Positions 14,744 to 46,701 of a stretch of DNA of 60,879 nt are shown one piece after another. Location: positions 1 through 60,879 of the forward strand of contig JALSSV010000045.1 in NCBI GenBank assembly GCA_026984045.1, written 5' to 3'. The notes under the pieces are model-generated. The model saw only the letters and a program-made list of their open reading frames with translations. It was not told the origin of the DNA and made no database searches. The translations under genes and the position numbers were made by a program. Each line of letters begins with the position of its first letter. The first letter of the stretch is position 1. Source of the stretch: Chromatiales bacterium (GTDB lineage: Bacteria > Pseudomonadota > Gammaproteobacteria > UBA6429 > Thiohalophilaceae).

Positions 14744-14757
14744 GTTTCCCGGGAAAC
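14744..14757. promoter_or_regulatory. ParB/Noc-like palindrome, site 1
   Basis: A perfect 14-bp palindrome GTTTCCCGGGAAAC in the non-coding left end of the prophage, between the terminator region and the last DGR-side gene. It is one of seven such sites in the prophage. Confidence 0.7.
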
Positions 14758-14866
14758 TGGTGCATGCCGGTGTACATGAGGCAGGCCTGCAGAGTTGACA
14801 TCCCCCGCATCTGCACGGTCGCCCTCTCTTTCCTTGAATGGTGTCCTGAGTGCTAGTCAACTCAGC

Positions 14867-14992
14867 TCACCAGACCACCGTCTGGATTGCTGTGACCTTC
14901 TCATCCGTGGTGAGCGTGGTGTCATCGACAATCGACTGAATCTCAACCGCCCTCAGGTTGTGCGCGCCACAACGATTGCGACTGAGCGTCAC
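14867..14992 (-). CDS. small protein translationally coupled to the DGR reverse transcriptase
   Basis: This 41-codon frame begins with a GTG that overlaps the TAG stop of the reverse transcriptase (TAGTG), a typical coupling arrangement. It ends D-E-K-V-T-A-I-Q-T-V-V-W. The composition (acidic/hydrophobic helix-like second half) looks protein-like, but no family is recognised and it may be chance. If real, it is the last gene of the DGR transcript. Confidence 0.4.
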   Translation of the reverse strand: MTLSRNRCGAHNLRAVEIQSIVDDTTLTTDEKVTAIQTVVW

Positions 14993-16062
14993 TAAATTTT
15001 CGACGCCATGTTGCCCAGCTTGCGCGCCCCATCGCCCCGCGTAAACCGTGCTCCACCAAGGACGGCGGCCCTTACTCTGGCGGTGTCGGCATGTTTGGCA
15101 TGAGCCACCCACGACGCGATTGTGGCGTGGACGCGGTCCAGGCCGATTATGCCAGCTTGAAATTGCCTTTGCAGGACCTTTAACCGCCGCTTCATGGCAA
15201 CCACTGATTGGCGCCGCAGCAGGCGGTGGTCGTGCCAGATGCGGTAGCCGACGAAGTTGAGGCCTCGGCCTGCTGGCAAGATACTGGTCTTGCTGAATGT
15301 CATACCCATACCGGCGAGGCGGGCTTCGAATTGGGCGCGGACGGTAAGAGCCTGCTCCTTGCTCCAGCACAGCACCACCATGTCATCCATGTACCGAATA
15401 TAGCGCTTGAGGCGCAGCTCGCGCTTGGCCCACTGGTCCAGCTCATTGCCGACGAGATTGGCGATCCATTGGCTTGTGAGGTTGCCGACCGGGATGCCAG
15501 CCGGCTCCAGCTCGTCGCTGCCGGCGGTGCTGTCGACGATGGTATCGAGCAGGCGGAGGGTGGCAGGGCAGCTGATTTTCCGGCGGATGACCTGCTTGGC
15601 CAGGCGGTGGCTGATGGACTGGAAATACTTGCTCACGTCCATCTTCAGTACCCACACCGAGCGGCCGCTCTTGTGCATGTCGCGCAGCCAACGCTGGGCG
15701 CGATTGGCGGCGGCATGGGTGCCTTTGCCGGGGCGGCAGGCGTATGTGTCCAGGAGCATAGCCTGGTGCCAGATCGGGGTGCAGATGTTGCAAATAGCGT
15801 GCTGCGCCACGCGGTCACGGTATGGCAGCGCGGCTATCTCCCGGCGCTTCGGTTCGCGGACCACGAATGTGCGGTACCAGCCTGGCTGGTAGGTGCCCCA
15901 GAGCAGCTCCATTTGGAGGCGGCCCAGCTCCTCCAAGAGGTTGGCCTCGAAGCGGATCACCTCTTCGCGGTTACGTTTCCCGCGGCGGGCGAGCCGGTGG
16001 GCCTCAATGAGGTTGTCCCAATCCACGATCTGCTTGATGAGCCGCTTGTGTTTCTTGCCCAT
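14992..16062 (-). CDS. DGR reverse transcriptase
   Basis: This 356-residue enzyme would reverse-transcribe the template-repeat RNA with errors at adenines. Motifs: M-D-V-S-K-Y-F at 141-147 (first catalytic Asp), I-P-V-G-N-L-T-S-Q at 190-198 (DGR RTs carry IGxxxSQ-like sequence here where group II and retron RTs have QG) and Y-M-D-D at 224-227 (catalytic Asp pair). A thumb-like basic region follows (K-R-R-L-K-V-L-Q-R). It lies downstream of TR and avd in the canonical order. Frame intact, all catalytic residues present. Confidence 0.96.
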   Translation of the reverse strand: MGKKHKRLIKQIVDWDNLIEAHRLARRGKRNREEVIRFEANLLEELGRLQMELLWGTYQPGWYRTFVVREPKRREIAALPYRDRVAQHAICNICTPIWHQAMLLDTYACRPGKGTHAAANRAQRWLRDMHKSGRSVWVLKMDVSKYFQSISHRLAKQVIRRKISCPATLRLLDTIVDSTAGSDELEPAGIPVGNLTSQWIANLVGNELDQWAKRELRLKRYIRYMDDMVVLCWSKEQALTVRAQFEARLAGMGMTFSKTSILPAGRGLNFVGYRIWHDHRLLRRQSVVAMKRRLKVLQRQFQAGIIGLDRVHATIASWVAHAKHADTARVRAAVLGGARFTRGDGARKLGNMASKI

Positions 16063-16247
16063 AGACTCCCTTTCTTATTCATTCTTGAAGGGCGGCCGCG
16101 CCGGGCTTTCGCCTCTCGGCTACTCGCGCGGCGCGACCCTTTTCAAGTCTTCGGCCTGGCCAGAAGGCCAGGACCAGGACGGACAGGCTGACCCCCTGTG
16201 GGGTGCTGGGTGACGGCGAACCCTCGCCGCCCTCTCGCAGTATGGTG

Positions 16248-16390
16248 GTCACAGGCGCCGCGCAGGCCGACATTGCCATTCGCATTCCACGGATTGGCAT
16301 TCGAATTGAGGCAGCGCGCACCGGCGTGAACGCCATCATTCCAATTGCCGCCGCCGATGAACGCACGCCAGGCCGCGTGGTTCACGTAGC
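16248..16390 (-). repeat. DGR template repeat (TR), with RT-proximal spacer
   Basis: The 143 nt match the target's variable repeat at 16775-16917 at 130 positions. All 13 mismatches lie where the TR coding strand has A. Nine codons of the implied frame are AAY (Asn), the design that yields maximal amino-acid variety without stops. The following 185 nt to the RT start (16063-16247) hold no gene and match the position of the spacer RNA needed for cDNA priming in the Bordetella phage DGR. A short open frame over TR is not considered a gene. Confidence 0.97.
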
Positions 16391-16409
16391 GCCGAAAACC
16401 CCATCCGAC

Positions 16410-16769
16410 CTATTTGAACCGCTTCCGCCAGGCGCCGACCATCGCGCCAATCTCGGCCAGCTGGCGGGCGGCTTCGCCCACCCGCTTCGGCCCGATCAGC
16501 TTGCGTTCGGCGCCGTGGCGAAGCAGTGCATGGATGAACCGGATCTGTTCATCGACCCGATACACCTTGCTCTTTTGGCCGCTCACTGCGGCCTTAATGA
16601 TGTCGTCGACAAGATGCCACAGCGCACCCTCCAGCCGAGCGGCGTAGCGGTAGCGCTGGTGCCTCGGGATCTTGTCAATGGCCGGCGCGAGATCGATGAT
16701 TAGGCGCTCGGCCTTGGTCAGTAACACAAGGCCCCGCTGCCGCGGGGCCGCATCAAGCTCCACGCTCAC
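16410..16769 (-). CDS. avd: DGR accessory variability determinant
   Basis: Avd proteins are small basic four-helix bundles that form a pentamer, bind the RT and the template RNA, and are needed for mutagenic retrohoming. This 119-residue protein is helical and basic (K-I-P-R-H-Q-R-Y, A-R-L-E-G-A-L-W-H, final W-R-K-R-F-K). It sits between target gene and TR as in the Bordetella phage. Its GTG start overlaps the target's TGA by 4 nt. If translation begins at this GTG, the DGR hairpin lies within its first codons; a second GTG at about codon 14 would avoid this. Confidence 0.9.
   Translation of the reverse strand: MSVELDAAPRQRGLVLLTKAERLIIDLAPAIDKIPRHQRYRYAARLEGALWHLVDDIIKAAVSGQKSKVYRVDEQIRFIHALLRHGAERKLIGPKRVGEAARQLAEIGAMVGAWRKRFK
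16730..16749 (-). other. DGR target-recognition hairpin/cruciform
   Basis: An 8-bp perfect stem, GGCCCCGC/GCGGGGCC, closes a 4-nt loop GGCA on the coding strand, 25 nt downstream of the VR. DGR hairpins downstream of the VR have stems of this size and a GRNA-type loop, which this loop satisfies. In the Bordetella phage the structure is needed for efficient retrohoming. Confidence 0.85.
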
Positions 16770-17989
16770 AGGGCGTCACAGGCGCCGCGCAGGCCGACAG
16801 TGCCAGTCGCACCCCACGGACCGGCAGACGAACCGAGGCAGCGCGCACCGGCGTGAACGCCATCAGTCCAATCGCCGCCGCCGATGAACGCACGCCAGGC
16901 CGCGTGGTCCACGTAGCCGCGGGGCGTGGCGCTGTCTTTGCCGACGTTGACGACGGTGTTGTCCCATGCAAAAGTGCCGCCAAGGTCATGGTGGTTATCG
17001 AGCCAGTCCCAGAGGTTTCCGACAGCATCGACGACATTGTACTGGCTCACCGCCTTGGCCACGGCGCCCGTGGTGGTCGGGCCGGTGTTCGTGGTGGCTG
17101 TCCAGGCTTGGTCGTTGCTGGCATCGAGGCCGGCAGGCGCGCCTTCCGCATAGCGCAGGAATTCCTCGATTGTCGGCAGGCGTTTTCCCGCGTTGGCGAT
17201 GAGCTGATGAAAGTCCGCCCTGGCGTAGACGTCATCCTTGATGGGTGTTGCGCCGTAGGCCGAGATGGGAATGTTCTCGGGCCACACGCCAGACCCTTCC
17301 GAGTTGAGGTAGATGTCCACCCAGAGGCTGCCAGGGATAACTTCGACCATGCCAGTCGGGTCGCATGTGGGGCGGTGCTGCAGGTCCCAGCAACTGTTCG
17401 GCACGATCTGCGCGGTGGGCACGAAAGCCGTGTCGTAGCGGTTGGCGATGGGGCGCACGTAACCGAAGTGGAAGCCGCCGACCTTGCGGCTGGTGGCCGC
17501 TGTGTAGCCGTTGGGCACGGTGCTGTTGTAGCTGGCCACCCACTTTGCGATGCCGGATGGATCCTGCACGGCGTAGATGTAGACGTTGTCGCCGAGCGCG
17601 AGGGCCGTGATGCTGCCGTCCTGGTTTGCGGCCAGCACAGGATCCCAGTCGGTCTGAGCGGTCAGCAGGTAGCCCAGGCCGTTGCCGCCGATGTTGATCT
17701 GGCCTTCCGGCAAGTTCAGGGTGTCGCCTGTACCCTTTTCGATCTGCCCCATCAACCACACGCTGCCGGCCGGTTGACCGACGAGGCGGATGGCGCTGAT
17801 GAGCTGCGCATCGTTGGCCGGATCCAGCGTGCCGCCGTTGTGCTCGGCGATGGCCACCAGCTCGCGCTGGACCGTGTTGAGGAAATCGGCCTTGAGGATC
17901 GTCGCCGGCGTGCCCGCCTGCGGATCACCTTCGGTCCACTCCCCCTGGGCGTCGGCGTTGGAGCCGGCCACGTCTCCGATTTTCAGCAT
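16766..17989 (-). CDS. DGR target: variable tail-fibre/receptor-binding protein
   Basis: The 407-residue protein is the last structural gene of the tail operon, in the tail-fibre position. The N-terminal part (about 1-120) looks like a fibre attachment/trimerisation region; the C-terminal part (about 200-407) resembles the formylglycine-generating-enzyme/C-type-lectin fold used by DGR variable proteins (L-P-T-I-E-E-F, N-L-W-D-W, G-L-R-G-A-C-D). The VR covers residues 358-405. Residues that differ from the template are 361, 373, 375, 386, 388, 390, 393, 395 and 397, and would lie on the ligand-binding face. It ends two codons after the VR. Confidence 0.93.
   Translation of the reverse strand: MLKIGDVAGSNADAQGEWTEGDPQAGTPATILKADFLNTVQRELVAIAEHNGGTLDPANDAQLISAIRLVGQPAGSVWLMGQIEKGTGDTLNLPEGQINIGGNGLGYLLTAQTDWDPVLAANQDGSITALALGDNVYIYAVQDPSGIAKWVASYNSTVPNGYTAATSRKVGGFHFGYVRPIANRYDTAFVPTAQIVPNSCWDLQHRPTCDPTGMVEVIPGSLWVDIYLNSEGSGVWPENIPISAYGATPIKDDVYARADFHQLIANAGKRLPTIEEFLRYAEGAPAGLDASNDQAWTATTNTGPTTTGAVAKAVSQYNVVDAVGNLWDWLDNHHDLGGTFAWDNTVVNVGKDSATPRGYVDHAAWRAFIGGGDWTDGVHAGARCLGSSAGPWGATGTVGLRGACDAL
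16775..16917 (-). repeat. DGR variable repeat (VR)
   Basis: Relative to TR, nine Asn codons have become GAC, GAT, ACT, GGT, TCT, GGT, GGT, ACT and ACT: 13 base changes, all at A in TR, with every C, G and T kept. The 3' end (coding strand) is G+C-rich and identical to TR, as expected for the initiation-of-mutagenic-homology segment. Confidence 0.97.
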
Positions 17990-17992
17990 GTC

Positions 17993-18331
17993 TTATCCTC
18001 CCAGTTCGGCGATCTTCTGCTGCACGTCCGCTTCGGTGTAACCTAGACGATCCATGCGGCTGCTGGTATCGCGGGTGAGCTTGTGTTGCTGGCGCACGAT
18101 GCTGCCGTCAGGCTGCTCGACGTCCAGCACGATGAAATCCGGCTCCGGGCCATCCGGCGCTTCGGTGGCCGCGAGATCGCGGTCGTAGCGGTAGCTGTAG
18201 GCACCGGCCAGCAGGCCGCGCCAGGCCTTGATACCGAATTCTGCCGGGATCTGGCCTGCGAGCGCGAGCTGGTGCATGCCCTCGCAGTCATCTTTCGTAT
18301 TGAGGTATCGGGGTATTCCGATCATCGTCAT
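17993..18331 (-). CDS. tail-associated protein of unknown function
   Basis: The 112-residue protein (ATG chosen at 18331; the next upstream gene ends at 18328) lies between the gp48-like baseplate gene and the DGR target, 3 nt before the latter's ATG. It contains an acidic middle with a short beta-rich segment (P-D-F-I-V-L-D-V) and a helical C-terminus (Y-T-E-A-D-V-Q-Q-K-I-A-E-L). Position suggests a fibre connector or assembly factor, but no family is recognised. Confidence 0.75.
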   Translation of the reverse strand: MTMIGIPRYLNTKDDCEGMHQLALAGQIPAEFGIKAWRGLLAGAYSYRYDRDLAATEAPDGPEPDFIVLDVEQPDGSIVRQQHKLTRDTSSRMDRLGYTEADVQQKIAELGG

Positions 18332-18918
18332 CCTCCGTAGCTGAACAGAACCGTGGTGTGCGCCGGGCGCCGGGCGCGCAGGACGCATTCGAGCAGCTCG
18401 TTGCCCCACGCCCGCAGCGGCTCGCCAGCGCCAGACGAGCCAGCCACGGCGTCCGTGACCGTGGTTTGCGGCGCATTCACCTGCCAGGCGAACCGCCAGG
18501 GCTCGCCATTGATGGCGTCACCCGCCACCGCCGCACCGGCATCTGCGGTGCGAAACTCGGTGATGGTGACGCTGTAGCCAAGATCGGCGGCGAGCCAGAT
18601 GAAATAGGCCGCGCTCTGGCCGCCGATGCCGGCGATGCGGCCAGTGAGCGCATCGCGGCGAGCGTCGACCGTATGCCCATCTGGCGTACAAGCATCTGGC
18701 AAGCCTGCGACGCGCTCCCAGTCCGGCAGCAGCTCGTAGGTGGTACGCGGATCGGCCTCGTCCACCAGATCGTCGGCACGGCCGTCGATCCTGGCGAGCT
18801 CGTCTGCCAGGGCCTGCAGCAGACGCCCCCAGGTGCTGTCCGGATCGACCGGCAGCGCCGCGCCTGGCGGCTGCAGCGCCAGGAGCTGGTCGCGGTAGTC
18901 CTCTGCCGTCATTGCCAT
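18328..18918 (-). CDS. Mu gp48-like (YmfQ) baseplate/tail protein
   Basis: The 196-residue protein matches the Mu gp48/YmfQ pattern: Y-x-x-Q-L-L-A-L-Q-P-P-G-A-A near the N-terminus, then a helical W-G-R-L-L-Q-A-L-A-D-E-L-A-R-I region and a C-terminal beta domain. Mu gp48 is a baseplate component linking wedge and fibre. It overlaps gp47 upstream by 10 nt and the small gene downstream by 4 nt, so it is co-translated in the baseplate operon. Confidence 0.88.
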   Translation of the reverse strand: MAMTAEDYRDQLLALQPPGAALPVDPDSTWGRLLQALADELARIDGRADDLVDEADPRTTYELLPDWERVAGLPDACTPDGHTVDARRDALTGRIAGIGGQSAAYFIWLAADLGYSVTITEFRTADAGAAVAGDAINGEPWRFAWQVNAPQTTVTDAVAGSSGAGEPLRAWGNELLECVLRARRPAHTTVLFSYGG

Positions 18919-19964
18919 GTGATGGTCCCGAGCACGGCGATCTCGCCGGTGTTGTGGGTCACGTCTGCCGTCGGGCTTGTGAGATCGTGATCGGTCTCGC
19001 CAGCGGCGATGCTGATGGCCTCACGGATGTGGCTGAGCAGGATGGTACCGCCGGGCTCGGCCTCGCGCGTGAGCAGATCGGCAAGCTCGGCTTTTACTGC
19101 GGCCTGCACGGCGCTGGTGTTGGGCGTGAGCGCGATCGTCAGATCCAGCGGCACGGCGACCGGCGCGACCACCGTCAGATCAGCCGTGACCGGGCGCACG
19201 GCATCGATATAGTCCTGCACCGCCTGCACGTCGGCGGCCTGGGGAATGCCGTCCGCGTAGGCATCGTCCATCATGAATCGCAGCGTGATCGTCCCGAGGC
19301 CCAACTCGGCCGGATAGACCCAGGCGCGCGTCACGCCGGAGACCTCGAGCGCCCAGGCCACGTAATCCGCCTGGGCGCCGCCGTGCGGCGGGTTCTGGAT
19401 CCGGGCCAGCAGCCGCTGGCGCAGGCTGGCGTCGGTTTCCGTGTCTGCGCCGCCGGTGAGGCCAGCGCTGTTCACGGTCGCTGCGCTGTTCACGCCACTG
19501 ACCGGAGACACCAGGGTAAGGCCTGTCCCGCCTGCCGCGTTGCTACTCTCGCCAGGCTGGCTTGCCGTAACGCCTGCGCTGGCGGAACCTGCGCTGATGG
19601 TCGCCTCCGCATCGGTGGCGTACTTGATGCCATCGGCGCGCTGCAAAGCGGTGCCTTGCGGGATGACGGCGCCATCCGTGCCTGTGAAGGTGACCGTGCC
19701 CGTGGCCGGCATTGCGGCCTTGCGCGATACGCCCCAGATGGATGCGTGCCGCTCCAGGTGCTCAGCATCTGCCGTGTCGATCATGAGCTGCTTCGACACC
19801 CAATCCAGATAACCGTACAGGCCGTGGACGGTGCCGGCGTGCATGCGGGCGAGCACGCCAAGCAGCGAGCGGCGCAGCCTGGCGTCGGCGCCGGGCAGGC
19901 GGCTCTCGATGTCGGCCTGGGCGCGCTCGATCAGGGTGGCGAGATCGGGGCGTTGAAACGGCAT
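18909..19964 (-). CDS. baseplate J-like protein (Mu gp47)
   Basis: The 351-residue protein starts M-P-F-Q-R-P-D-L. It carries the baseplate-J pattern: an alpha-helical N-terminus, V-T-F-T-G-T-D-G-A-V-I-P-Q-G-T near residue 100, G-G-A-D-T-E-T-D-A-S-L-R-Q-R-L near 175, then beta-rich C-terminus. It forms the wedge of contractile baseplates. Order gp46-gp47-gp48 is exactly that of Mu. Confidence 0.93.
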   Translation of the reverse strand: MPFQRPDLATLIERAQADIESRLPGADARLRRSLLGVLARMHAGTVHGLYGYLDWVSKQLMIDTADAEHLERHASIWGVSRKAAMPATGTVTFTGTDGAVIPQGTALQRADGIKYATDAEATISAGSASAGVTASQPGESSNAAGGTGLTLVSPVSGVNSAATVNSAGLTGGADTETDASLRQRLLARIQNPPHGGAQADYVAWALEVSGVTRAWVYPAELGLGTITLRFMMDDAYADGIPQAADVQAVQDYIDAVRPVTADLTVVAPVAVPLDLTIALTPNTSAVQAAVKAELADLLTREAEPGGTILLSHIREAISIAAGETDHDLTSPTADVTHNTGEIAVLGTITWQ

Positions 19965-20411
19965 TTACAAGGTCTCCCAAAGACGGTTGAAGCGGTATTC
20001 CACCGGATCAGTATCCGGCCGTTCTATGGATACGTGAAGGCCGAGTACGCCGCGCCCCTGAATCAGCGCCTCGACGCGAACGGCGCCGGCGATACCGTCC
20101 TCCACCAGCCAGGCCAGCGCCTCTTCGGCGTACTCGCGCGCCCGTTCGGCCACGACCGGCAACTGCTTTTCCCGGGAAACGAGCCAGAGCCGTGAGCCGA
20201 GCCGGTCGCTGTCCGCCTCAGGCCAGGCATCGGCCCAGAACCCGCGCCGGTCACCGCCATCGTCCGGCAACACGTCGTCCGGCTCGGCGCGCCGATCCGT
20301 GAACAGGCTCAGGATCACGGCGGTGCGCAGGCCGTCGTCGGTGGCCAGGTCGTAGCCGCCCAGCTCGATGTCGCCGCCGGTTTCATGCCAGACGATGGCC
20401 AGATCGGTCAT
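19965..20411 (-). CDS. Mu gp46-like baseplate protein (gpW/gp25-related)
   Basis: The 148-residue protein has the gp46 signature, with G-G-Y-D-L-A-T-D-D-G-L-R-T-A-V-I-L-S-L-F-T-D-R-R-A at residues about 18-42 and R-G-F-W-A-D near 57. It is a wedge component. Adjacent on both sides to gp45 and gp47 homologues. One of the dispersed palindromes (20167-20180) lies within the gene and encodes V-S-R-E. Confidence 0.9.
   Translation of the reverse strand: MTDLAIVWHETGGDIELGGYDLATDDGLRTAVILSLFTDRRAEPDDVLPDDGGDRRGFWADAWPEADSDRLGSRLWLVSREKQLPVVAERAREYAEEALAWLVEDGIAGAVRVEALIQGRGVLGLHVSIERPDTDPVEYRFNRLWETL
20167..20180. promoter_or_regulatory. ParB/Noc-like palindrome, site 2
   Basis: TTTTCCCGGGAAAC: the 12-bp core is perfect, one outer base differs from the consensus. 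It lies inside the gp46-like gene. Confidence 0.6.
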
Positions 20412-20989
20412 TGCGGGCCTCCCGTGCTGTCAGCGCCGGCAGTGACGCCGCCGTGGGTGTGGGTGCCAAGCTCCAGCGCGCCGATTGACACCCCGGTATC
20501 ACTCGACACCTGGCCGCTGGCCGAGATGGCGCCGTTGACCTGCAGATTGCCATTGAGCGTGATGTTGCCATTGTGCTCGGTGGCGGCGTTGACGGTGACG
20601 GCGGGGGCGGTGACTTCCACCAGGCTTGCGCCGTTGACCAGGATGCGATCGCGACTGAGGTGGACGACGTTGCCGAGATCGTCGTAAAGCGCCACCTCAC
20701 CCTGAGCCAGGCCTGCGAGGCGATAGCGCCTGTCGTCGACAGACACTGCCACAGTGTGGGCGCGCTGACCGCAGACGGCGAGCGCAACCGCCTCCGCGCC
20801 GGGATGCGGGTGCGAGCTGAATCCGTACTCCTGGAACCGCTCGATGCCGTCCATCGTCTCGCCGGCCAGCATGTCGATCTGCACGGTCTGCAGCTTGCCG
20901 CCGTCATCCACCAGCCGGACGACCGCGCGCGATACAATCAGCCGCACCCGCCGCGCCAGGGGCGCAAGCAGGCTACGCAGCCCAGCCAT
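20408..20989 (-). CDS. Mu gp45-like baseplate spike protein
   Basis: The 193-residue protein has the gp45 pattern: basic N-terminus, an OB-like domain (about 30-110, with F-Q-E-Y-G-F-S-S-H-P-H-P-G-A-E) and a C-terminal beta-helix tip rich in N-G and V-N-G repeats (H-N-G-N-I-T-L-N-G-N-L-Q-V-N-G). This trimeric spike pierces the outer membrane. It overlaps its neighbours on both sides by a few bases. Confidence 0.9.
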   Translation of the reverse strand: MAGLRSLLAPLARRVRLIVSRAVVRLVDDGGKLQTVQIDMLAGETMDGIERFQEYGFSSHPHPGAEAVALAVCGQRAHTVAVSVDDRRYRLAGLAQGEVALYDDLGNVVHLSRDRILVNGASLVEVTAPAVTVNAATEHNGNITLNGNLQVNGAISASGQVSSDTGVSIGALELGTHTHGGVTAGADSTGGPQ

Positions 20990-24839: not shown

Positions 24840-24860
24840 CTGCTACACTCTCACCAAACC

Positions 24861-24874
24861 GTTTCCCGGGAAAC
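24861..24874. promoter_or_regulatory. ParB/Noc-like palindrome, site 3
   Basis: A perfect 14-bp GTTTCCCGGGAAAC, intergenic, 22 nt upstream of the tape measure start, in the 135-nt gap after the tail-assembly-chaperone extension. Confidence 0.7.
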
Positions 24875-25731: not shown

Positions 25732-25746
25732 GCGTCATTCCTCCTC

Positions 25747-35833: not shown

Positions 35834-35835
35834 AC

Positions 35836-39583: not shown

Positions 39584-39691
39584 GCCTGTCCTAACCCCCT
39601 GTTACACAACGAAAAACGTCACACACTGGCAAAACCGCGCGGTGTCCAGACCCCCGGGTAAAACGCCTGGGAAGGACCCGCGCCATTACCC

Positions 39692-40393
39692 TCAGGCCTG
39701 GCCGCCACCTGCCGGGCAGCAGCCGAGCCGCGCCCGCATCTCGGCGATGGCCGCCCTGGCCGTGGCGCTGGCCCGTTGCCGCTCGACCGGCGTGACGGCC
39801 TTGCCGGTCCGGTCTTCCAGTCCGCCGCTGGCGTCTTCCGCCGGCCAGGTGTGCCGGCCTGCGGCGATGCGCCTGTACAGCGGCGCGAAGCGGCGCAGGC
39901 CTTCCCGCTCGGAAAGCTGCGACCAGCAGAACACGTCGCAGTCCGGATGGCGCGCGGCGGCCAGCACGGCCGGGTGCCGATACCGCTGGCGCAACGTGCC
40001 TGGCATGCCGATGGCACGGCAGATGATGCGCCAGGCCTCTGCGGCATCCGGAATGCCGGCGGCCTCACGGCAAAGCCTGGCGAACTCATGCGCCGATGGC
40101 GGCCAGTCGCTGTCCAGCGCTTCCAGGCCGAGCCTGATGGCATCTCCGTCTAGCCCAGCAAGAACTTGCGCCCACTCGTTCACGGCTTCGTCTTCGTTGC
40201 CGTCGATGAACGTCAGCCACTTGTGCCCATAGCGCAGACGGAACTTGTCGAACAACGCGGCCACCCAGTGTTTCGGCAGCTCAGGTTTCGTCGAGCCTCT
40301 CGGCGAAGCCGTTGCGTGCGATGTCTTCTGCGGCGATTGCCTTGAGCCTGTCCCTGACACGACTCGAGCGGCTGCTGTGCTGACGTGCTGCAT
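39692..40393 (-). CDS. replication protein P-like
   Basis: The 233-residue protein begins at an ATG with a strong GGGGGA ribosome site, overlapping the O gene's end by about 110 nt. The lambda P-like part runs from P-K-H-W-V-A-A-L-F-D-K-F near 51 through W-P-P-S-A-H-E-F near 120 to a C-terminal helix. P recruits the host DnaB helicase to O. The large overlap is unusual and the true start could be downstream. Confidence 0.75.
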   Translation of the reverse strand: MQHVSTAAARVVSGTGSRQSPQKTSHATASPRGSTKPELPKHWVAALFDKFRLRYGHKWLTFIDGNEDEAVNEWAQVLAGLDGDAIRLGLEALDSDWPPSAHEFARLCREAAGIPDAAEAWRIICRAIGMPGTLRQRYRHPAVLAAARHPDCDVFCWSQLSEREGLRRFAPLYRRIAAGRHTWPAEDASGGLEDRTGKAVTPVERQRASATARAAIAEMRARLGCCPAGGGQA

Positions 40394-41204
40394 GACGTGT
40401 TCCCCCTTGCGTCTTGCGATAGGCCCGCTCGTTGGCGAGCCACTTGCGAAACTCTGCATCCCAGTTTTCCCGCAACGTGCCGCGCGCCTGGTGATGCGCC
40501 ACGAAGGCCAGCACGCATTCGTGCGGGTCTGGAAACCGGTGAGCCCGTGCGTATTCCACGTGCTGCTCTGTGACAGCGAAATCGTCTGGCATCGGCGTTC
40601 TTTCGCGTGTGAGCGAATCAACGCGCGCGCGCGATCTAAGCCGTTCGTTACCCTCGCTGGTAGTAGAATCCGTATATTCCCGGATCCCCGGAGGTATGCC
40701 CTTCCTCCCATGCCCCTCACATGCCCTTCCTGCCTGTGGATAACACTGTTCAGGCCGCATGAATACGACGTTTCCGCCATGCCCCTCACATGCCCCTGCT
40801 TTCATGCCCTTCCTATGCCCTTCCTCATTCGGACGGACTTCTCCTGAATGGCCTGAATCTTCCAAAAATTTTGGGTCTACAGAGGCTTTTGGCAGGCGAA
40901 TAATCATGTCCTCGAAGCGCGCACTCCTGACGAACTCGACCAGGCCGGCAGACTCAAGCTGTTTCAATGCAATGCGCAGCTTCTTCTTCGTTATGTAGGC
41001 TTCGTCATCGCGCTTCGTGCTGCCGTTCTTTCGCTCGACCGTAAGAACTTCACGCATCATCTGGTACGAGATTTTTCTTCGTTCGCCGACGAGGCCTGTG
41101 CGGTAATCCATGCATCTTCGCAGCCCACGCAAGTACAACAGTTGCGCGAAGTGCGGCAGACCCTGTAGGGCCTCGTCTTCCCCTTCGTTCCATTGCGTGT
41201 TCAT
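40281..41204 (-). CDS. replication initiator O-like protein
   Basis: The 307-residue protein has an N-terminal winged helix domain (L-P-H-F-A-Q-L-L-Y-L-R-G-L-R near 15, T-K-K-K-L-R-I-A-L-K-Q-L-E-S-A-G-L near 72) and a C-terminal DnaT-like domain (M-P-D-D-F-A-V-T-E near 204, W-D-A-E-F-R-K-W-L near 250). Between them the coding DNA holds iterons and a DnaA box, as in lambda O. Confidence 0.88.
   Translation of the reverse strand: MNTQWNEGEDEALQGLPHFAQLLYLRGLRRCMDYRTGLVGERRKISYQMMREVLTVERKNGSTKRDDEAYITKKKLRIALKQLESAGLVEFVRSARFEDMIIRLPKASVDPKFLEDSGHSGEVRPNEEGHRKGMKAGACEGHGGNVVFMRPEQCYPQAGRACEGHGRKGIPPGIREYTDSTTSEGNERLRSRARVDSLTRERTPMPDDFAVTEQHVEYARAHRFPDPHECVLAFVAHHQARGTLRENWDAEFRKWLANERAYRKTQGGTRHAARQHSSRSSRVRDRLKAIAAEDIARNGFAERLDET
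40696..40825. other. phage replication origin: iterons and DnaA box
   Basis: Seven copies of ATGCCC(T/C)T-type iterons start at 40696, 40710, 40721, 40779, 40790, 40804 and 40815, several exactly 11 bp apart. They include four copies of ATGCCCTTCCT. A perfect DnaA box TGTGGATAA is at 40735-40743, and A+T-rich DNA lies at about 40860-40873. The array is inside the O gene, as in lambdoid origins. Confidence 0.85.
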
Positions 41205-41340
41205 GTTTCGCGCTCCGGTTTCATTTGACCTTGCACCGACTTCCGATTGTGATAAACATAAGTGAACAAGGTTGGGCAGGCGGTGCACCACCACCGCCTG
41301 CCCCATCCAGCCCCATTCCACTTGCTTTTCGGAGGAAAAA

Positions 41341-41835
41341 ATGGAGCCGAATCTCGAAAACTATGTGCGCATGATTCCGCGCACGGTTTGGAATATGGTG
41401 GGTGAAATGCCGTTCATTCTCTTCATTCTGGCTCTTCCGTTCGCCTGGTGGTACACGGGCAGCTTTTACGAGGCGATTCCCTATGCGATGTTCGCTGTCG
41501 TTCCCGGCCTTGCATACACGCTGTGGAATCTTTTTCCGGAGCATATTTGCTGCGGCGTACGATGGGACAGGCGAGGCAAGCCGCGCTGCCCTTTTTGCAA
41601 GACTCGGCTTGTTGCGGCGCCGACAGCTGTCGTCAAGACAAGCATCGAGGAACACCCTACCAAAACAAACTGGGTGACCGGCGCGCCGAGCAAAGTCGTG
41701 AAAAAGGAACGCCATTACAAAATCACCACGCTCAAATGCCCAGGGTGCAAGATGGTGCACCAGCTGCATGACGAAAAAGGCAGGCCTGTTGAGCTGGCCG
41801 ACGCAAAGCGCCTGGCCGCCGAAACGCGGCTGTAG
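41341..41835 (+). CDS. membrane protein with zinc ribbon
   Basis: The 164-residue protein has a GGAGG ribosome site before the ATG at 41341. Two membrane segments (about residues 22-42 and 47-68) are followed by a cytoplasmic zinc-ribbon-like domain with C-P-F-C and C-P-G-C pairs. It is divergent from the replication genes and convergent with CII. Function unknown; possibly a superinfection-exclusion or host-interaction factor. Confidence 0.75.
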   Translation: MEPNLENYVRMIPRTVWNMVGEMPFILFILALPFAWWYTGSFYEAIPYAMFAVVPGLAYTLWNLFPEHICCGVRWDRRGKPRCPFCKTRLVAAPTAVVKTSIEEHPTKTNWVTGAPSKVVKKERHYKITTLKCPGCKMVHQLHDEKGRPVELADAKRLAAETRL

Positions 41836-41841
41836 CCAGTC

Positions 41842-42291
41842 TCAGCAAATCTCATTCCTCTTCACCTCTTCGCGCAGCGTGTTTTCCAGTACCGCCAGGG
41901 CATGGCGGGCTTCCCGGATCTCGCGCATGATGCGCATGTGCTCCTTGGCGTCGATGACACCGTCCGTCAGCGCCTCTTCAACCGCTTTTGACACGTCGCC
42001 GGTTTCGCTGGCGGTGTGAATTACGGCCAGGGCCGCGCTGCTGTTGCGCTCGTGCGTGGATGTGACCACGCGCGCGCCGAACATGCCGGCCAGGGCCTCC
42101 AGTGGCGAAAGATCGCCCGTGTCATCAATGATGGCCACCAGCTCGCCGACGTGTGGCATGTGCATCTCGTCGGCCGGGTTCAGCTTGTTGATGAGGGTCT
42201 GCTCGCGCTTGCCAAGGCGGCGCGCCAGGCCGCAGATCCCGCCTCTGGCCGCCTTGGCGCTCTGGTGCAGCGCCATCAGAAACTCGTCCAT
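41842..42291 (-). CDS. CII-like phage regulatory protein (CP76 family)
   Basis: The 149-residue protein (ATG at 42291) has the phage regulatory CII family pattern: A-L-H-Q-S-A-K-A-A-R-G-G-I near residue 6, L-A-R-R-L-G-K-R-E-Q-T-L-I-N-K-L-N-P near 23-40 (HTH), and H-M-P-H-V-G-E-L near 45. It is second in the transcript from the Cro promoter, a place suited to lysogeny control. Confidence 0.85.
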   Translation of the reverse strand: MDEFLMALHQSAKAARGGICGLARRLGKREQTLINKLNPADEMHMPHVGELVAIIDDTGDLSPLEALAGMFGARVVTSTHERNSSAALAVIHTASETGDVSKAVEEALTDGVIDAKEHMRIMREIREARHALAVLENTLREEVKRNEIC

Positions 42292-42373
42292 CGACTCCCT
42301 CCCGTGTTCGCGGCGCAGGAAAAACCCTGCGCATGTTGTGCATATTTGCAAGAATTCATGACGAAAACGCAGC

Positions 42374-42625
42374 TCATGCCGCCTCCTCACGCTCGCGCAG
42401 GCAGGCAGGACACTGGCACCAGGCCTCTTTTGGATAGAGGTCAGGGCGCAGGTCATGGCGGCTGACCTGGTAATCGGTGGCGGCTTCGATAGCGAGGACG
42501 CGCTCTGCAGGTATTGGTTTATCGCTATGTTTCCATTCATGTATTGCCTGACGCGACACTCCGGCATATTTGGCAAGTAGCGCTCCAGAGCCAATCATCT
42601 CTACTATCTGCTTACGAGTAATCAT
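42374..42625 (-). CDS. Cro-like repressor (YdaS type)
   Basis: The 83-residue protein has an HTH A-L-L-A-K-Y-A-G-V-S-R-Q-A-I-H-E-W-K near 13-30 and a C-terminal C-Q-C-P-A-C pair. It is divergent from CI across a 73-nt operator region, and followed by CII, which together form a lambda-like switch. Confidence 0.85.
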   Translation of the reverse strand: MITRKQIVEMIGSGALLAKYAGVSRQAIHEWKHSDKPIPAERVLAIEAATDYQVSRHDLRPDLYPKEAWCQCPACLREREEAA

Positions 42626-42632
42626 ACACCAA

Positions 42633-42648
42633 ATGATAGGCATACCAT
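42633..42648. promoter_or_regulatory. CI/Cro operator candidate 1
   Basis: The 16-bp partly symmetric site ATGATAGGCATACCAT (12 of 16 positions symmetric) is in the divergent cro-cI region, just upstream of cro. It shares the half-site ATGATAGG with candidate 2. Confidence 0.5.
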
Positions 42649-42690
42649 ACACTCCACGTCAAGCTTCCTTTCCTCCTGTCAATGTAACTT

Positions 42691-42714
42691 CACCTATCAT
42701 GGCTAGCATAGGTG
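42691..42714. promoter_or_regulatory. CI/Cro operator candidate 2
   Basis: Perfect 7-bp arms CACCTAT (42691-42697) and ATAGGTG (42708-42714) flank 10 bp that include the CI start codon. CCTATCAT at 42693-42700 is the same half-site as in candidate 1. Confidence 0.55.
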
Positions 42715-43169
42715 ACAGAATTAGAGAGGCGAGAATTCGTGCGGGATTCTCTATAGCTGAATTGGCCAGACGTGTTGGTGTCTCAAGAGCATCTGCTCAG
42801 CAGTGGGAATCAGGCGCTTCAAAAGGGTTAAAACCTGAAAATTTGATACGCGTTGCGGATGCGCTTGGCGTTCAACCGAAATGGCTTGCGTTAGGAAAAG
42901 GGCCGATGTCCTTAGATAACGTATCAGACAGAAACATCCAAGCTAGCGTAGGGCTCGCGAGAGCGGGAGAACCAATTTCTATTTCGCTGACAGAGTATTT
43001 AGAAAATCTTCGCCAGCGCGTTCACACGGCGCCGGAGAGCATTCGCCACGATGCGAGCCAGCTCATCATGAAATACCTTGAGAGCGACGACGAGGGTTCG
43101 TCCTCACGCCTGCTGCACGCCATCGAGGCGCTGTTGAACGAGGAAGAAAGCGCCAACGGGCCTGGTTGA
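42699..43169 (+). CDS. CI-like repressor (HTH only)
   Basis: The 156-residue protein carries an HTH-XRE domain (residues 3-62: I-A-E-L-A-R-R-V-G-V-S-R-A-S-A-Q-Q-W-E) and a C-terminal dimerisation region. It lacks the S24 self-cleavage peptidase, so induction probably depends on an antirepressor rather than direct RecA-stimulated cleavage. Antirepressor-like genes exist at 33.9 and 45.2 kb. Divergent from cro. Confidence 0.9.
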   Translation: MASIGDRIREARIRAGFSIAELARRVGVSRASAQQWESGASKGLKPENLIRVADALGVQPKWLALGKGPMSLDNVSDRNIQASVGLARAGEPISISLTEYLENLRQRVHTAPESIRHDASQLIMKYLESDDEGSSSRLLHAIEALLNEEESANGPG

Positions 43170-43178
43170 CGCCATGGT

Positions 43179-43192
43179 GTTTCCCGGGAAAC
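43179..43192. promoter_or_regulatory. ParB/Noc-like palindrome, site 6
   Basis: Perfect GTTTCCCGGGAAAC, intergenic, 10 nt after the CI stop and directly before the terminator. Confidence 0.7.
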
Positions 43193-43221
43193 AAAAAACC
43201 CCGCACAAGGCGGGGTTTTTG
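43193..43221. terminator. bidirectional terminator between cI and cargo genes
   Basis: AACCCCGC (43197-43204) and GCGGGGTT (43210-43217) pair across a 5-nt loop, with an A run on the left and a T run on the right, so it can serve both converging transcripts. Confidence 0.85.
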
Positions 43222-43240
43222 TTGATTGTTGGTGTTCGTA

Positions 43241-43396
43241 TTACGCCGCTTTTTCCAGTTCAGAATCGGCATATCGATCCGTATTCCAGGTGAACCACCC
43301 GGTATTTCGCAGCTCGGCATGGCTCATTTTCTCGAGTTCGTGTTCAATCGCGGTCCTGATGAATGCGAAAAACTCGCTATCAGTCTTGATTTCCAT
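43241..43396 (-). CDS. small acidic cargo protein
   Basis: This 51-residue protein starts immediately after the stop of the 43397-43960 gene, with that gene's 3' end supplying a GGAGG ribosome site. It is acidic, with aromatic residues (E-F-F-A-F-I-R-T-A-I-E and N-T-G-W-F-T-W-N-T-D-R-Y). The pair is transcribed toward cI and probably forms a lysogen-expressed cargo operon. No family is recognised. Confidence 0.6.
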   Translation of the reverse strand: MEIKTDSEFFAFIRTAIEHELEKMSHAELRNTGWFTWNTDRYADSELEKAA

Positions 43397-43960
43397 TTAG
43401 TTTCCTCCAGAGGATTCAATAACCAGCCATTTATATTGACGATAAACTTGGTACTCGCCCCAGTCGCCAGCCGTCGCGACGAGCGAATCGAACATGTTGA
43501 GCAATTCCGGCGAACGGCCGTAGATTTTGAATTTCCGCACCCCATTCTGGTATGCGAGATTCATCGCCGAAACGATCGCGAAACCAATGATATGAATGGC
43601 TCCACCGATGGTATTCGAATCGACTTCTTCTTCGAGCTGAAAAAGCAAAATCGGCTGTAAATTGAAATCCAGCAACTTCAATGACGGATCCTTTGATTTA
43701 TGCGCATCCGTCATGTCAACGACGGCCACCGGTATATCATGGCCGCCAGAACCATCCTTGGTTGTTACAACATATAGACGCCAGTCACCGTTTTCGGTTC
43801 CTGGGTCGGCATAACCTTTCCACCAACTAAGTTGGCGCTCCAGCATCGGCCAGAAGACATCGGCCTTCTCCGCTGGCATGCTTTCGATCTGCTCTGTCCA
43901 TGTTTCTTCTATGCGCTTCAGCAGACGCGCATCTAACTCGTGAAACTCTAAATCATCCAC
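43397..43960 (-). CDS. prophage cargo protein, GNAT-like candidate
   Basis: The preferred GTG start at 43960 follows a GAAGGA site and gives 187 residues; a longer frame reaches 44113. The protein has a helical N-terminus with several Trp, a beta strand W-R-L-Y-V-V-T, and a region I-H-I-I-G-F-A-I-V-S-A-M-N-L-A-Y-Q-N-G-V followed by K-F-K-I-Y-G-R. It vaguely recalls an acetyltransferase fold. It is less G+C-rich than its neighbours and sits in the spot behind cI where lysogenic-conversion or anti-phage genes are often found. Function not known. Confidence 0.65.
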   Translation of the reverse strand: MDDLEFHELDARLLKRIEETWTEQIESMPAEKADVFWPMLERQLSWWKGYADPGTENGDWRLYVVTTKDGSGGHDIPVAVVDMTDAHKSKDPSLKLLDFNLQPILLFQLEEEVDSNTIGGAIHIIGFAIVSAMNLAYQNGVRKFKIYGRSPELLNMFDSLVATAGDWGEYQVYRQYKWLVIESSGGN

Positions 43961-44190
43961 TCGCGTCGTTCCTTCTCCGTTTTCGGATTCACGATATTTA
44001 GCGGCGCGCCGTGGACCGATCTTGAGTCTTCCGGGAAATCCTGATCGCCATCCTTTGCCACAAAAATAGTAAGCCAACAATGACCGATGTATATACGCAT
44101 TGTATATACACAATCATAGCCACGCAAAGCGAATTTCCCACTAAACCCTCCCCGCCAAGAACGCAATTCCACTTGAGATGTATTGCTTAC

Positions 44191-44219
44191 TTGACGGAAG
44201 ATGTACGGTATGCTTTACT
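44191..44219 (+). promoter_or_regulatory. promoter candidate for the plus-strand operon
   Basis: TTGACG (44191-44196) and TTTACT (44214-44219) are spaced by 17 nt, 34 nt before the first gene of the 44.25-48.4 kb operon. The -10 is weak. Confidence 0.45.
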
Positions 44220-44252
44220 CTGTAGCGCAATCCAACTACCAAGGAGGTCGCC

Positions 44253-44432
44253 ATGCACGCCACCGATGCAAACCCGCTGCGCAACTACGTGATCCGCCAG
44301 CACCGCGACTACGCCCAGACAGCCCTGAACGACGCGCGCTACGCCCGCTGGGTGGCGCGCCGCGAGGCCTGGCTGCGGGCCCGGGCCGAGGGCCTGAGCC
44401 TGCGTTTTCCCCTTGAGCTGGTCGAGGCCTGA
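44253..44432 (+). CDS. small Arg-rich phage protein
   Basis: The 59-residue protein is preceded by an ideal AAGGAGG. It is helical and rich in Arg and aromatic residues (Y-V-I-R-Q-H-R-D-Y, R-Y-A-R-W-V-A-R-R-E-A-W). First gene of the plus-strand operon. Function unknown; may be an early host-takeover peptide. Confidence 0.7.
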   Translation: MHATDANPLRNYVIRQHRDYAQTALNDARYARWVARREAWLRARAEGLSLRFPLELVEA

Positions 44433-44435
44433 GCA

Positions 44436-44669
44436 ATGGATGGCGAGAAATTGCTGCTGGCGATGCTGATCTGGGTGCTGGCGAGCCTGCCTGCTGGCGT
44501 GCTGCTTGGCACGTTCATCGCCCGGGCGAATGATGAGGGCGAGCCACGGCCCAGGCCAGGCGTTCGGCCGCGCCACGGCAACGCCAACGTAATCAAGTTC
44601 CCGCGCCGCAAGCGCCAGTACCACGGCGCGCGGCTGCCGGAGCCTCCCGAACCGCCGGAGGCGGCGTGA
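44436..44669 (+). CDS. small membrane protein next to the endolysin
   Basis: The 77-residue protein has one membrane segment (about 6-29, L-L-L-A-M-L-I-W-V-L-A-S-L-P-A) and a basic, Pro-rich tail. It overlaps the endolysin start by 4 nt. It may be a pinholin or lysis regulator; a second holin candidate lies at 28.9 kb. Confidence 0.65.
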   Translation: MDGEKLLLAMLIWVLASLPAGVLLGTFIARANDEGEPRPRPGVRPRHGNANVIKFPRRKRQYHGARLPEPPEPPEAA

Positions 44670-45211
44670 TGATGGCGTCCACTTTCGACGTGGCTATGAA
44701 CTGGCTGGTGGGCGTGGAGGGCGGCTTTTCCGCCGATCCTGACGACCCCGGCAACTGGTCTGGCGGCGAGCTGCGCGGCACCAGGTACGGAATCAGCGCG
44801 GCGCGCTACCCGGATCTGGACATCGCCTCCATGACTCTGGAACAGGCGAAGGTCCTCTACCGGCGCGACTACTGGGGCCGCTACCGCTGTGGAGAGCTGC
44901 CCGCGCCGCTGGGCGTGGCGCTGTTCGATGCCGTGGTGCAGCACAGCCCGCGCCAGGCGATCCGCCTGCTGCAGGATGCCGTGGGCGCTGCCACCGACGG
45001 CCTGTTGGGGCCGGCCACGCTGGCTGCCGCGAATGATGCGGACCGGCATCTTGCCGCTCGCCTGTTTCTGCGCAACCGGCTCGGCTACTACCACCGCATC
45101 ATGGTGCGCCGCCGCTCGCTCGAGAAATTTCTGCGCGGGTGGTTCGACCGCGTGCTGCGGCTGGAAGCCTTTCTCATCCACCACCAACTGATGGAGGCGC
45201 GGTATGACTAG
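44666..45211 (+). CDS. endolysin (GH108-type lysozyme with peptidoglycan-binding domain)
   Basis: The 181-residue protein has the GH108 catalytic motif V-E-G-G-F-S near residue 16 (acid Glu), Y-G-I-S near 40, a D-Y-W-G near 68, and the C-terminal predicted peptidoglycan domain (D-G-L-L-G-P-A-T-L near 112). It cleaves cell wall for release. No signal peptide, so it needs a holin. It is upstream of parB rather than in the late tail operon. Confidence 0.92.
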   Translation: MMMASTFDVAMNWLVGVEGGFSADPDDPGNWSGGELRGTRYGISAARYPDLDIASMTLEQAKVLYRRDYWGRYRCGELPAPLGVALFDAVVQHSPRQAIRLLQDAVGAATDGLLGPATLAAANDADRHLAARLFLRNRLGYYHRIMVRRRSLEKFLRGWFDRVLRLEAFLIHHQLMEARYD

Positions 45212-45476
45212 CAAAACCTACACGGTCCAGGAGGCCGCCCACATCCTCGGCGTGGGCCAGCGCGAGCTGTTCCGCTACCTGCGCGAGCACCGCGTGATCG
45301 ACGCCGGCAACATTCCCTATTCCTACTACCTAGACAACGGCCTGATGAAGGTGCGCTATTCGAGCTGGGCCAAGCCAGGCGATCGGCGTGCGCACCATCA
45401 CGCGCGGCCGCTGGTAACGCCGCGCGGGCTCGACTGGCTGCGCGGCCGGCTGGCCGAAGAAAGGAAGGCGTCATGA
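45204..45476 (+). CDS. phage antirepressor KilAC-domain protein
   Basis: The 90-residue protein fits the KilAC domain: T-V-Q-E-A-A-H-I-L-G-V-G-Q-R-E-L-F-R-Y-L-R near 7-27, then R-Y-S-S-W-A-K-P-G and V-T-P-R-G-L-D-W-L. Usually this domain is the C-terminal part of Ant proteins; here it stands alone. It may relieve CI repression or act on host regulators. Confidence 0.85.
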   Translation: MTSKTYTVQEAAHILGVGQRELFRYLREHRVIDAGNIPYSYYLDNGLMKVRYSSWAKPGDRRAHHHARPLVTPRGLDWLRGRLAEERKAS

Positions 45477-46039
45477 GGGGCGTGATTCTCGATACGGAAA
45501 CCACGGGTCTGCTGCCGGAGCGCGGCCACCGCATTATCGAGCTGGCCGCCATCGAGATCCGTGAGGCCTTTCCGCCAGCCGGACAGGCCATCGAGCCGAC
45601 CGGCATGGCCTTCTACGCGCGGCTTGACCCGGAGCGCGACAGCGACCCAGGCGCCATGGAAGTGCACGGCATCACCAGAGAGATGACGCTTGGCCAGCCG
45701 CGGTTCTCCGACGTTGCCGATGCATTTCTGGCCTTCGTGCGCGGCAGCATGGTGATCATCCACAACGCGCCGTTCGACACGGGCTTCATTGACGCCGAGC
45801 TTGCCAGACTTGGACCGGACTACGGCCGCCTGCACGATCACGCCATGGTGCTATGCACGCGCCAGATGGCCTATGAGCGCCTGCCCGGCATGCGCCACAG
45901 CCTGGACGCCCTGTGCCTGCACTACGGCATCGACACCAGCCACCGCGCCCTGCACGGCGCGCTGACTGACGCGATGCTGTTGCTGGAGGTGTACAGGCGC
46001 CTGGTGGCAGAACCCGGCCGTGAGGAGGTCAGCGCATGA
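45473..46039 (+). CDS. DnaQ-like 3'-5' exonuclease
   Basis: The 188-residue protein is a DEDDh exonuclease: L-D-T-E-T-T-G near residue 6, H-G-I-T near 64, H-N-A-P-F-D near 98, and a final H-x(4)-D (H-G-A-L-T-D-A) near 162. It resembles DNA polymerase III epsilon. Likely used in replication or degradation of invading/host DNA. Overlaps the neighbouring genes by 4 nt. Confidence 0.92.
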   Translation: MRGVILDTETTGLLPERGHRIIELAAIEIREAFPPAGQAIEPTGMAFYARLDPERDSDPGAMEVHGITREMTLGQPRFSDVADAFLAFVRGSMVIIHNAPFDTGFIDAELARLGPDYGRLHDHAMVLCTRQMAYERLPGMRHSLDALCLHYGIDTSHRALHGALTDAMLLLEVYRRLVAEPGREEVSA

Positions 46040-46224
46040 CAATGAGTAACCTGCGCACCCGGCTCATGGCCAGGCGCATCTGGCGGCGGCACGCACGGCA
46101 CCGTCTTCCGCGCCCTCTCAGACACCGCACCTTTCTCCGACGTTACTCCGGCGTGGGCTGGGGCCGCGGCACGGAGTTTCACCTGCGCAGGCGTTTTCAA
46201 ACCTTAGCAAGGAGGAAGCCATGA
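46036..46224 (+). CDS. very basic small protein
   Basis: The 62-residue frame is coupled to both neighbours by 4-nt overlaps and is about one third Arg. It could be a nucleic-acid-binding peptide, but high G+C antisense effects can also yield Arg-rich frames, so reality is uncertain. Confidence 0.4.
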   Translation: MTMSNLRTRLMARRIWRRHARHRLPRPLRHRTFLRRYSGVGWGRGTEFHLRRRFQTLARRKP

Positions 46225-46523
46225 ACATCTACGACCATGCCAGGAGCGTGCTGTACCAGGAGTGGCGCCACAACTGCGCTCTGGTAGACGAGTACGATGC
46301 CAACAGCAACACGCTGCGCCGCCAGACGCGCGACGACACCTTTTCCGGCTGGCTGTCCGGCTGGTGCGAAGCCATGCGTCTTGCCGCTGACACCAACCCG
46401 GCCTGGTGGCCGGTGCTGGACGATGCGCGCGCCCTGCGCGACCTGTGGCTGTTTCGCGCCAACCAGAGCATTTTCGATTACCTGGACAAACTGGAGAAGA
46501 ACCATGCTCGTTCTGTCGCGTAG
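46221..46523 (+). CDS. phage protein upstream of csrA, unknown
   Basis: The 100-residue, Trp-rich acidic protein (Y-Q-E-W-R-H-N, F-S-G-W-L-S-G-W, N-P-A-W-W-P-V-L) has an AAGGAGG ribosome site. It overlaps csrA by 20 nt, so the two are coupled. It might work with or control the phage CsrA; no family known. Confidence 0.75.
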   Translation: MNIYDHARSVLYQEWRHNCALVDEYDANSNTLRRQTRDDTFSGWLSGWCEAMRLAADTNPAWWPVLDDARALRDLWLFRANQSIFDYLDKLEKNHARSVA

Positions 46524-46686
46524 GCTCGGCCAGGCCATTGTGGTGAATGGCAACGTGGAAATCCGCGTGCTTGGCCAAAACACGGACGGCTCCATCCGCA
46601 TCGGCATCATCGCGCCACCGAATGTCACCGTGCACCGCGAGGAAGTCCAGATGCGGATCAACGCCGAGAAAGCCGAGAACAAATGA
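46504..46686 (+). CDS. csrA: phage-encoded CsrA/RsmA-like RNA-binding regulator
   Basis: CsrA dimers bind GGA motifs in mRNA leaders and control translation and stability. The 60-residue protein aligns along its full length: M-L-V-L-S-R-R-L-G-Q start, I-R-I-G-I-I-A-P-P-N-V-T-V-H-R-E-E-V at 31-48 (conserved R44-like Arg in V-H-R-E-E). It is embedded in the plus-strand operon between a small unknown gene and parB. A phage copy could redirect host translation, motility or metabolism. Confidence 0.93.
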   Translation: MLVLSRRLGQAIVVNGNVEIRVLGQNTDGSIRIGIIAPPNVTVHREEVQMRINAEKAENK

Positions 46687-46687
46687 C

Positions 46688-46701
46688 GTTTCCCGGGAAA
46701 C
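46688..46701. promoter_or_regulatory. ParB/Noc-like palindrome, site 7 (parB leader)
   Basis: Perfect GTTTCCCGGGAAAC between the csrA stop and the parB ribosome site (AGGAG at 46702-46706). The position suggests ParB autoregulation or a nucleation site. Confidence 0.75.

Follow-up and report, generated by a model that had tools for sequence, protein, structure and literature searches.

ParB clamps are familiar from chromosomes and plasmids, where they mostly act together with ParA, and the relatives Noc and KorB have other defined tasks. Here, we describe a prophage in a stretch of 60,879 nucleotides from a Chromatiales bacterium (GenBank assembly GCA_026984045.1, contig JALSSV010000045.1; hereafter the window) that encodes its own ParB and carries seven copies of one palindrome. 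The nearest precedent found is Corndog, one of the Cluster O mycobacteriophages, which has 34 dispersed TGTTCGGNNNCCGAACA palindromes and the ParB-like protein gp90 (PMC4351075). The Corndog palindromes lie partly within genes and mostly away from promoters, and a parAB system is absent (PMC4351075). Its authors named three possible DNA-binding proteins, including gp90, left the actual binder unsettled, and considered a role of the ParB-like protein in genome stability unlikely (PMC4351075).

The prophage resembles Corndog in having one palindrome in many copies over the phage genome together with a ParB-like protein and no parAB. The gp90 coordinates 54424-55932 imply a protein of about 500 amino acids, as in the case of the prophage ParB, the two being likened here by description (PMC4351075). 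The palindromes are different, however, and the Cluster O phages are not obviously temperate. As with KorB of RK2 (PMC11790492), the system consists of a predicted ParB-family CTPase clamp with sites over a mobile element and is not a standard partition protein, but KorB has another operator and works with its partner KorA at promoters. With Noc of Bacillus and its binding sites (PMC7383237), the prophage shares a ParB relative without ParA, genome-scattered sites, and the inner CCCGGG; unlike in Noc, the outer base is G and not A, and the protein has Arg instead of Gln at position 173 and Ala instead of Arg at position 201. The domains ParB_N and HTH_ParB, the arms GTTTC..GAAAC, and Arg173 are those of chromosomal ParB and parS, but the centre of the site is YYRR (Y, pyrimidine; R, purine) and not ACGT, Lys204 replaces Arg, the sites are spread over the element, and the protein has a Cys cluster, a long C-terminal part, and no ParA motif. 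The orphan ParBs of a 2025 survey (PMC12704722) are also prophage-encoded and without a ParA motif; the accessible part of the survey gives no binding sites for them, and the string GTTTCCCGGGAAAC is absent from its main text. The openly licensed literature yielded no recognisable report of this motif system or of dispersed sites accompanying phage ParBs. The system is a variant within the ParB clamp family and is neither Noc nor ParABS.

We favour, with modest confidence, the reading that the seven palindromes are loading sites of the prophage's own ParB, from which its clamp would slide out over the phage genome and coat it. A string search of the window located the 12-mer TTTCCCGGGAAA at 14745, 20168, 24862, 30186, 36021, 43180, and 46689. 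An earlier, sequence-only reading of this DNA had listed the same seven copies one nucleotide lower, which is the first base of the 14-mer, and had rightly counted five full 14-bp palindromes GTTTCCCGGGAAAC; the remaining two copies retain one outer C. TTTCCCGGGAAA is the most frequent 12-bp palindrome of the window, with seven copies versus one for every other. The whole host assembly (G000; 2,982,687 bases in 104 contigs, the contig of the window being C45) contains exactly seven TTTCCCGGGAAA, all of them in the prophage, and no copy of the reversed control pattern. The exact 14-mer was observed five times in the prophage region 14600-49600 and never in 60 dinucleotide shuffles of it. The host flanks of about 26 kb, already described as motif-free, contain no place resembling GTTTCCCGGGAAAC even when three mismatches are allowed. 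The whole-genome count and the shuffles speak against a chance motif, which was rejected, and a role in restriction or methylation was discarded because the centres CTGA, TCAA, and TTGA found in relatives destroy CCCGGG.

The motif is also enriched in related phages. A collection made by ParB similarity comprised 15 viral contigs, including the window's own phage, plus one genome, and the sites were counted afterwards. In the 15 contigs besides the window phage that entered this count (473 kb), GTTTCnnnnGAAAC occurred 36 times, whereas 19 rearranged arms of the same letters occurred 0 or 1 times each. The centre was YYRR in 29 of the 36 (13 CCGG, 4 TCAA, 3 TCGG, 1 CCAA, and 2 each of TTGG, CTGG, CTGA, and TTGA), and thus the family site is GTTTCYYRRGAAAC. 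At least one site with such a centre was present in 12 of the 15 contigs. When the five contigs that were also matched by the motif scan described below were excluded, the other ten gave 19 occurrences (16 with a YYRR centre) versus 0 or 1. Contig G052 has 8 places with at most one mismatch versus none in 60 shuffles, and in the genomes G060 and G072, every site lies on the contig bearing the family ParB. Across 38 further genomes from the family of the host, which total about 111 Mb according to the genome table, there are 3 sites and 9 copies of the reversed pattern. Scans with the single relatives P0022, P0027, and P0007 gained no further contigs.

The protein scored 73.4 bits against ParB_N (cut-off 26.3; Pfam E value 1.5e-20), 45 bits against HTH_ParB (cut-off 22.6; Pfam E value 1.3e-11), and 124 bits against TIGR00180 (cut-off 58.45), which places it in the ParB/RepB/Spo0J family. 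Its scores of 97.3 bits with the NCBIfam Noc model (cut-off 315) and of 61 bits with the PRTRC ParB model TIGR03734 (cut-off 278.6, residues 30-133 only) place it in neither of these groups. The predicted structure (predicted local distance difference test 88.9) has the CTPase clamp fold and matches KorB best by VIA; at the level of sequence, the match to chromosomal ParB (6t1f, E value 9.9e-28) is stronger than that to KorB (8qa8, E value 9.1e-16). The motifs GENRTRA and ENHLRRDLNP, which we take to be the motifs of ParB for binding cytidine triphosphate (CTP), are present and largely conserved across the 29 family members.

The residues that read the DNA were compared with those of described proteins. 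Arg173 of Caulobacter ParB bonds the outer G of parS, and an Arg at 201 of Noc reads the inner C (PMC7383237). Positions 173, 179, 184, and 201 of the phage ParB are occupied by Arg, Leu, Glu, and Ala, so that the outer-G reader is kept and Gln173, Lys179/184, and Arg201 of Noc are absent. Arg occupies position 173 in 25 of the 29 family members (Asp, Glu, and Gly in three, a gap in one), and Lys occupies position 204 in all 29, where ParB and Noc have Arg. Judging from these residues, Arg173 would account for the outer G of the phage site. The label of a Noc/parS hybrid, proposed previously, suits the site of this phage but neither the looser site of its relatives nor the Ala at 201. No support was obtained for a general rule linking every orphan ParB of phages to dispersed palindromes, as VarioGold, Kiko, and Bowser encode distant ParBs with other specificity residues and have neither this motif nor a clear alternative; the highest count among them was 10 copies of one 5-bp arm in the GC-rich Bowser.

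In the opposite direction, from site to protein, the association was weaker. A 14-mer scan of viral contigs gave at least 120 stretches, and there were 80 loci in 70 contigs among the matches listed. The domain search covered 50 motif-chosen contigs, including the window's own phage; HTH_ParB was found in 12 of them and ParB_N in 13 at an E value of 0.001, 11 of which were over the cut-off. With the window phage excluded, ParB relatives were present in 12 of 49 contigs and relatives of TerL in 5 (E value 1e-6). At least 7 of these 12 ParB-bearing contigs belong to the subfamily of the window ParB; an insensitive search of 2.9 million viral contigs recovered this subfamily in 15, and therefore 7 of 49 is far above background. 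When 40 proteins of the window phage were compared with 16 motif contigs, relatives were found for ParB in 7, the portal in 4, TerL in 4, the neck protein in 3, CsrA in 3, and the CI-like and Cro-like proteins in 2 each. Four of the 16 (G015, G020, G029, and G040) had been fetched for their known ParB, so this count favours ParB.

Several results weigh against the proposed assignment. No ParB relative was found in 37 of the 49 motif-chosen contigs. Among 11 contigs with at least three exact sites, a ParB domain is present in only 4 and was undetected in 7, and ParB was not found in G004, which has 12 exact sites in 72 kb. The 12 contigs fetched for their sites alone include 3 with ParB (G002, G003, and G047) and 3 with CsrA; a replication initiator, a helicase loader, and a Cro-like protein recur in 2 each. 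On the protein side, GTTTCYYRRGAAAC is missing from 3 of the 15 ParB-chosen contigs (G051, G055, and G056) and from the entire genome G337, which has a clear close family member. The Ala at 201 in place of Noc's Arg leaves the inner C unaccounted for, so that this base would have to be read in some other way. Finally, the near-regular spread of the sites described previously stands for this prophage but is no general property of site-bearing contigs. The gaps here are 5423, 4694, 5324, 5835, 7159, and 3509 bp (coefficient of variation 0.23), a spacing more even than that of seven random points by a post hoc test chosen after seeing the data (P ~0.001). With sites at one mismatch or fewer, the corresponding values were 0.02 for G060, 0.07 for G004 (0.03 with its 12 exact sites), 0.08 for G052, 0.41 for G006, and 0.55 for G002.

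The ParB-less motif contigs are possibly fragments lacking the gene, or have another binder. That the palindromes are operators of some other DNA-binding protein, such as CI, Cro, or a host factor, with ParB as a bystander, is in our judgement improbable: it would suit G004 and the 37 contigs without a ParB relative, but it is at odds with the strong enrichment of sites in contigs picked by ParB alone, with the excess of ParB over TerL relatives in the motif contigs, with the lack of the site elsewhere in the host genome, and with the identity of the arms to those of parS (as quoted in the sequence-only reading), which ParB relatives bind (PMC7383237). Among the matches listed for seven contigs, at most 12 per contig, there was no common DNA-binding candidate of the ParB-less motif-rich contigs. 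All that G004 has in common with the other motif-rich contigs is a csrA and one neighbouring gene. Ten large open reading frames (ORFs) of G004, one of them scanned in part, comprised nine without a Pfam match and one resolvase. An all-against-all comparison of 15 sequences showed that G006, G009, G036, and G046, with 2 to 5 sites, are mutually related. The five perfect sites of G006 (loci L131, L148, and L149) accompany a distant ParB of 674 amino acids, in which positions 201 and 204 are Thr and Arg, so several ParB lineages may read the site. In G004 (IMG/VR contig 3300028592_000008, loci L144-L147), 10 of the 12 sites are flanked by CG on both sides and form a 16-bp palindrome.

Thus, recognition of these sites by the phage ParB, as proposed earlier, gains support from the co-occurrence, strong from protein to site and weaker from site to protein, and from the kept Arg173; loading, spreading, and the functions attached to them are what we infer. 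The arrangement of the sites and the neighbouring genes is given in Table 1.

Table 1. Positions of the palindromic sites and of selected prophage genes in the window
Feature	Position	Strand	Description
Prophage	13575..49470	.	extent according to IMG/VR contig 3300026534_000118 (35,896 bp), which has the same seven sites
Site 1	14744..14757	.	GTTTCCCGGGAAAC; past the 3' end of the late operon, overlaps none of 40 called genes
Site 2	20167..20180	.	TTTTCCCGGGAAAC; within the baseplate wedge gene 19965-20411 (phrog_180, E value 4.4e-49)
Site 3	24861..24874	.	GTTTCCCGGGAAAC; upstream of the tape measure gene
Site 4	30185..30198	.	ATTTCCCGGGAAAC; within an ORF of 77 amino acids without a PHROG match
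Site 5	36020..36033	.	GTTTCCCGGGAAAC; below the head-tail joining gene, where the gene call is ambiguous
CI-like gene	42570-43169		adjoins site 6; Cro-like gene nearby
Site 6	43179..43192	.	GTTTCCCGGGAAAC; directly past the CI-like gene, ahead of a hairpin and T-run (hairpin read from the sequence)
csrA-like gene	46504..46686	+	immediately upstream of parB; start read from the sequence
Site 7	46688..46701	.	GTTTCCCGGGAAAC; csrA stop codon on one side, parB ribosome-binding site on the other
parB	46713..48215	+	500 amino acids; ParB_N (CTPase fold), HTH_ParB, Cys cluster, putatively helical C-terminal part
Excisionase gene (xis)	48219..48425	+	phrog_4764, E value 8.5e-20; starts 3 bp past parB
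Tyrosine integrase gene (int)	48430..49470	+	PF00589, E value 8.7e-22

The extent of the prophage was set in this way because all seven sites share one offset to the IMG/VR contig; no attachment-site repeat of at least 14 bases was found. The genes for a sheath, tube, tape measure, baseplate, portal, major head protein, and GpA-type terminase indicate a contractile-tailed phage. The left half of the prophage is a single long late region on the minus strand, and the right part contains replication genes, small repressors, an endolysin, an RNase_T-type exonuclease, and the csrA-like gene, followed by parB, xis, and int, which have the same direction and gaps of 3-4 bp.

According to the mechanism that we propose, the ParB-type CTPase would close as a clamp with CTP at each palindrome, and the clamps would slide outward from the sites until they coat the phage genome over its full length, for which seven loaders about 5 kb apart would provide coverage of the whole genome. 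With less certainty, the coat might organise or mark the phage DNA, either by compaction or by keeping copies apart after excision. A whole-genome role is preferred over single-promoter control because the sites lie inside genes and mid-operon by gene order. Judged in the same way, with promoters unmapped, none of them is at an obvious operon start, and operators of late promoters were disfavoured for this reason and for the location of sites 2 and 4 within ORFs. Because parB immediately precedes xis and int and shares their direction, induction may switch on its expression, and the whole-genome role probably acts after induction. The site in front of parB could let ParB limit its own synthesis.

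The main rival to this genome-wide coat is that ParB loads and slides to silence the phage genes of the lysogen as KorB does, with the CI-like or Cro-like repressor locking the clamps at promoters. There is a precedent in KorB itself, which reaches promoters as far as 1.5 kb away by sliding and is held at them by the small DNA-binding KorA, acting as a lock (PMC11790492). The structural match to KorB, the CI-like gene adjoining site 6 with a Cro-like gene near it, and the position of site 7 directly ahead of parB all agree with such silencing. We nevertheless regard it as rather unlikely, given that by gene order the sites are not located at operon starts, the site inside the baseplate wedge gene, the small share (2 of 16) of motif contigs with CI-like or with Cro-like relatives, and the grouping of parB with xis and int, which suggests induction over lysogeny. 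The seven sites differ from what we take to be the KorB operator.

The search for a ParA-type gene (AAA_31) gave no match on the contig of the window and 10 matches elsewhere in the host assembly, and the ParA-binding motif (L/F/I)G(K/R)G(L/F/I) occurs in 0 of the 29 family members. Without ParA and the motif for binding it, this is hence not a standard partition system, in line with the earlier reading. The host has its own parAB, its ParA gene being present in the assembly. Segregation of the phage in an extrachromosomal or replicating state by means of this host ParA would fit the ParB fold, and the phage-plasmid N15, which has dispersed centromere sites, counts in its favour; still, we hold it to be highly improbable in view of the missing ParA-binding motif, the integrase and excisionase of the phage, and the host's own ParB and parS-like sites. 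Two such sites are located on contig C13 of the host assembly at 155290 and 155908, about 37 kb from the host parAB.

The genome G060 and the contig G002 have ParB and early genes in common with the window phage, but share none of its recognised structural genes (E value 1e-8). It is conceivable, though we put it forward only tentatively, that an orphan zinc-finger-like ParB with the new code GTTTCYYRRGAAAC forms a mobile phage-chromatin module that coats genomes in structurally unrelated phages and explains the dispersed palindromes of other phages. If our reading is true, a virus would organise or mark its own DNA independently of the host ParB through its own genome-wide site code. It would also offer a testable answer to the many off-promoter palindromes of some phages, for example Corndog. 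The family could further serve as a natural experiment in DNA specificity, in which Arg173 is mostly kept, the reader of base 6 has changed, and the site is loosened from A or C to a pyrimidine.

The csrA-like product scored 57.6 and 54.9 bits with the CsrA models (scanned from 46507), under the cut-offs of 73 and 70.1, respectively. Relatives of this gene are found in G060, G002, G003, and the motif-rich G004. The prophage also contains a complete-looking diversity-generating retroelement on the minus strand (14992-17989) with a reverse transcriptase, Avd, and an Mtd-like tail protein. Its template repeat (16248-16393) and variable repeat (16775-16920) differ at 15 positions, 13 of which are template adenines. 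In the host flank, the repeats 51532-51589 and 58362-58419 resemble the N-terminal motif of type IV pilin-like proteins and flank an ORF of 1355 amino acids (53952-58019), for which, as for the repeats, we presume a function in pili.

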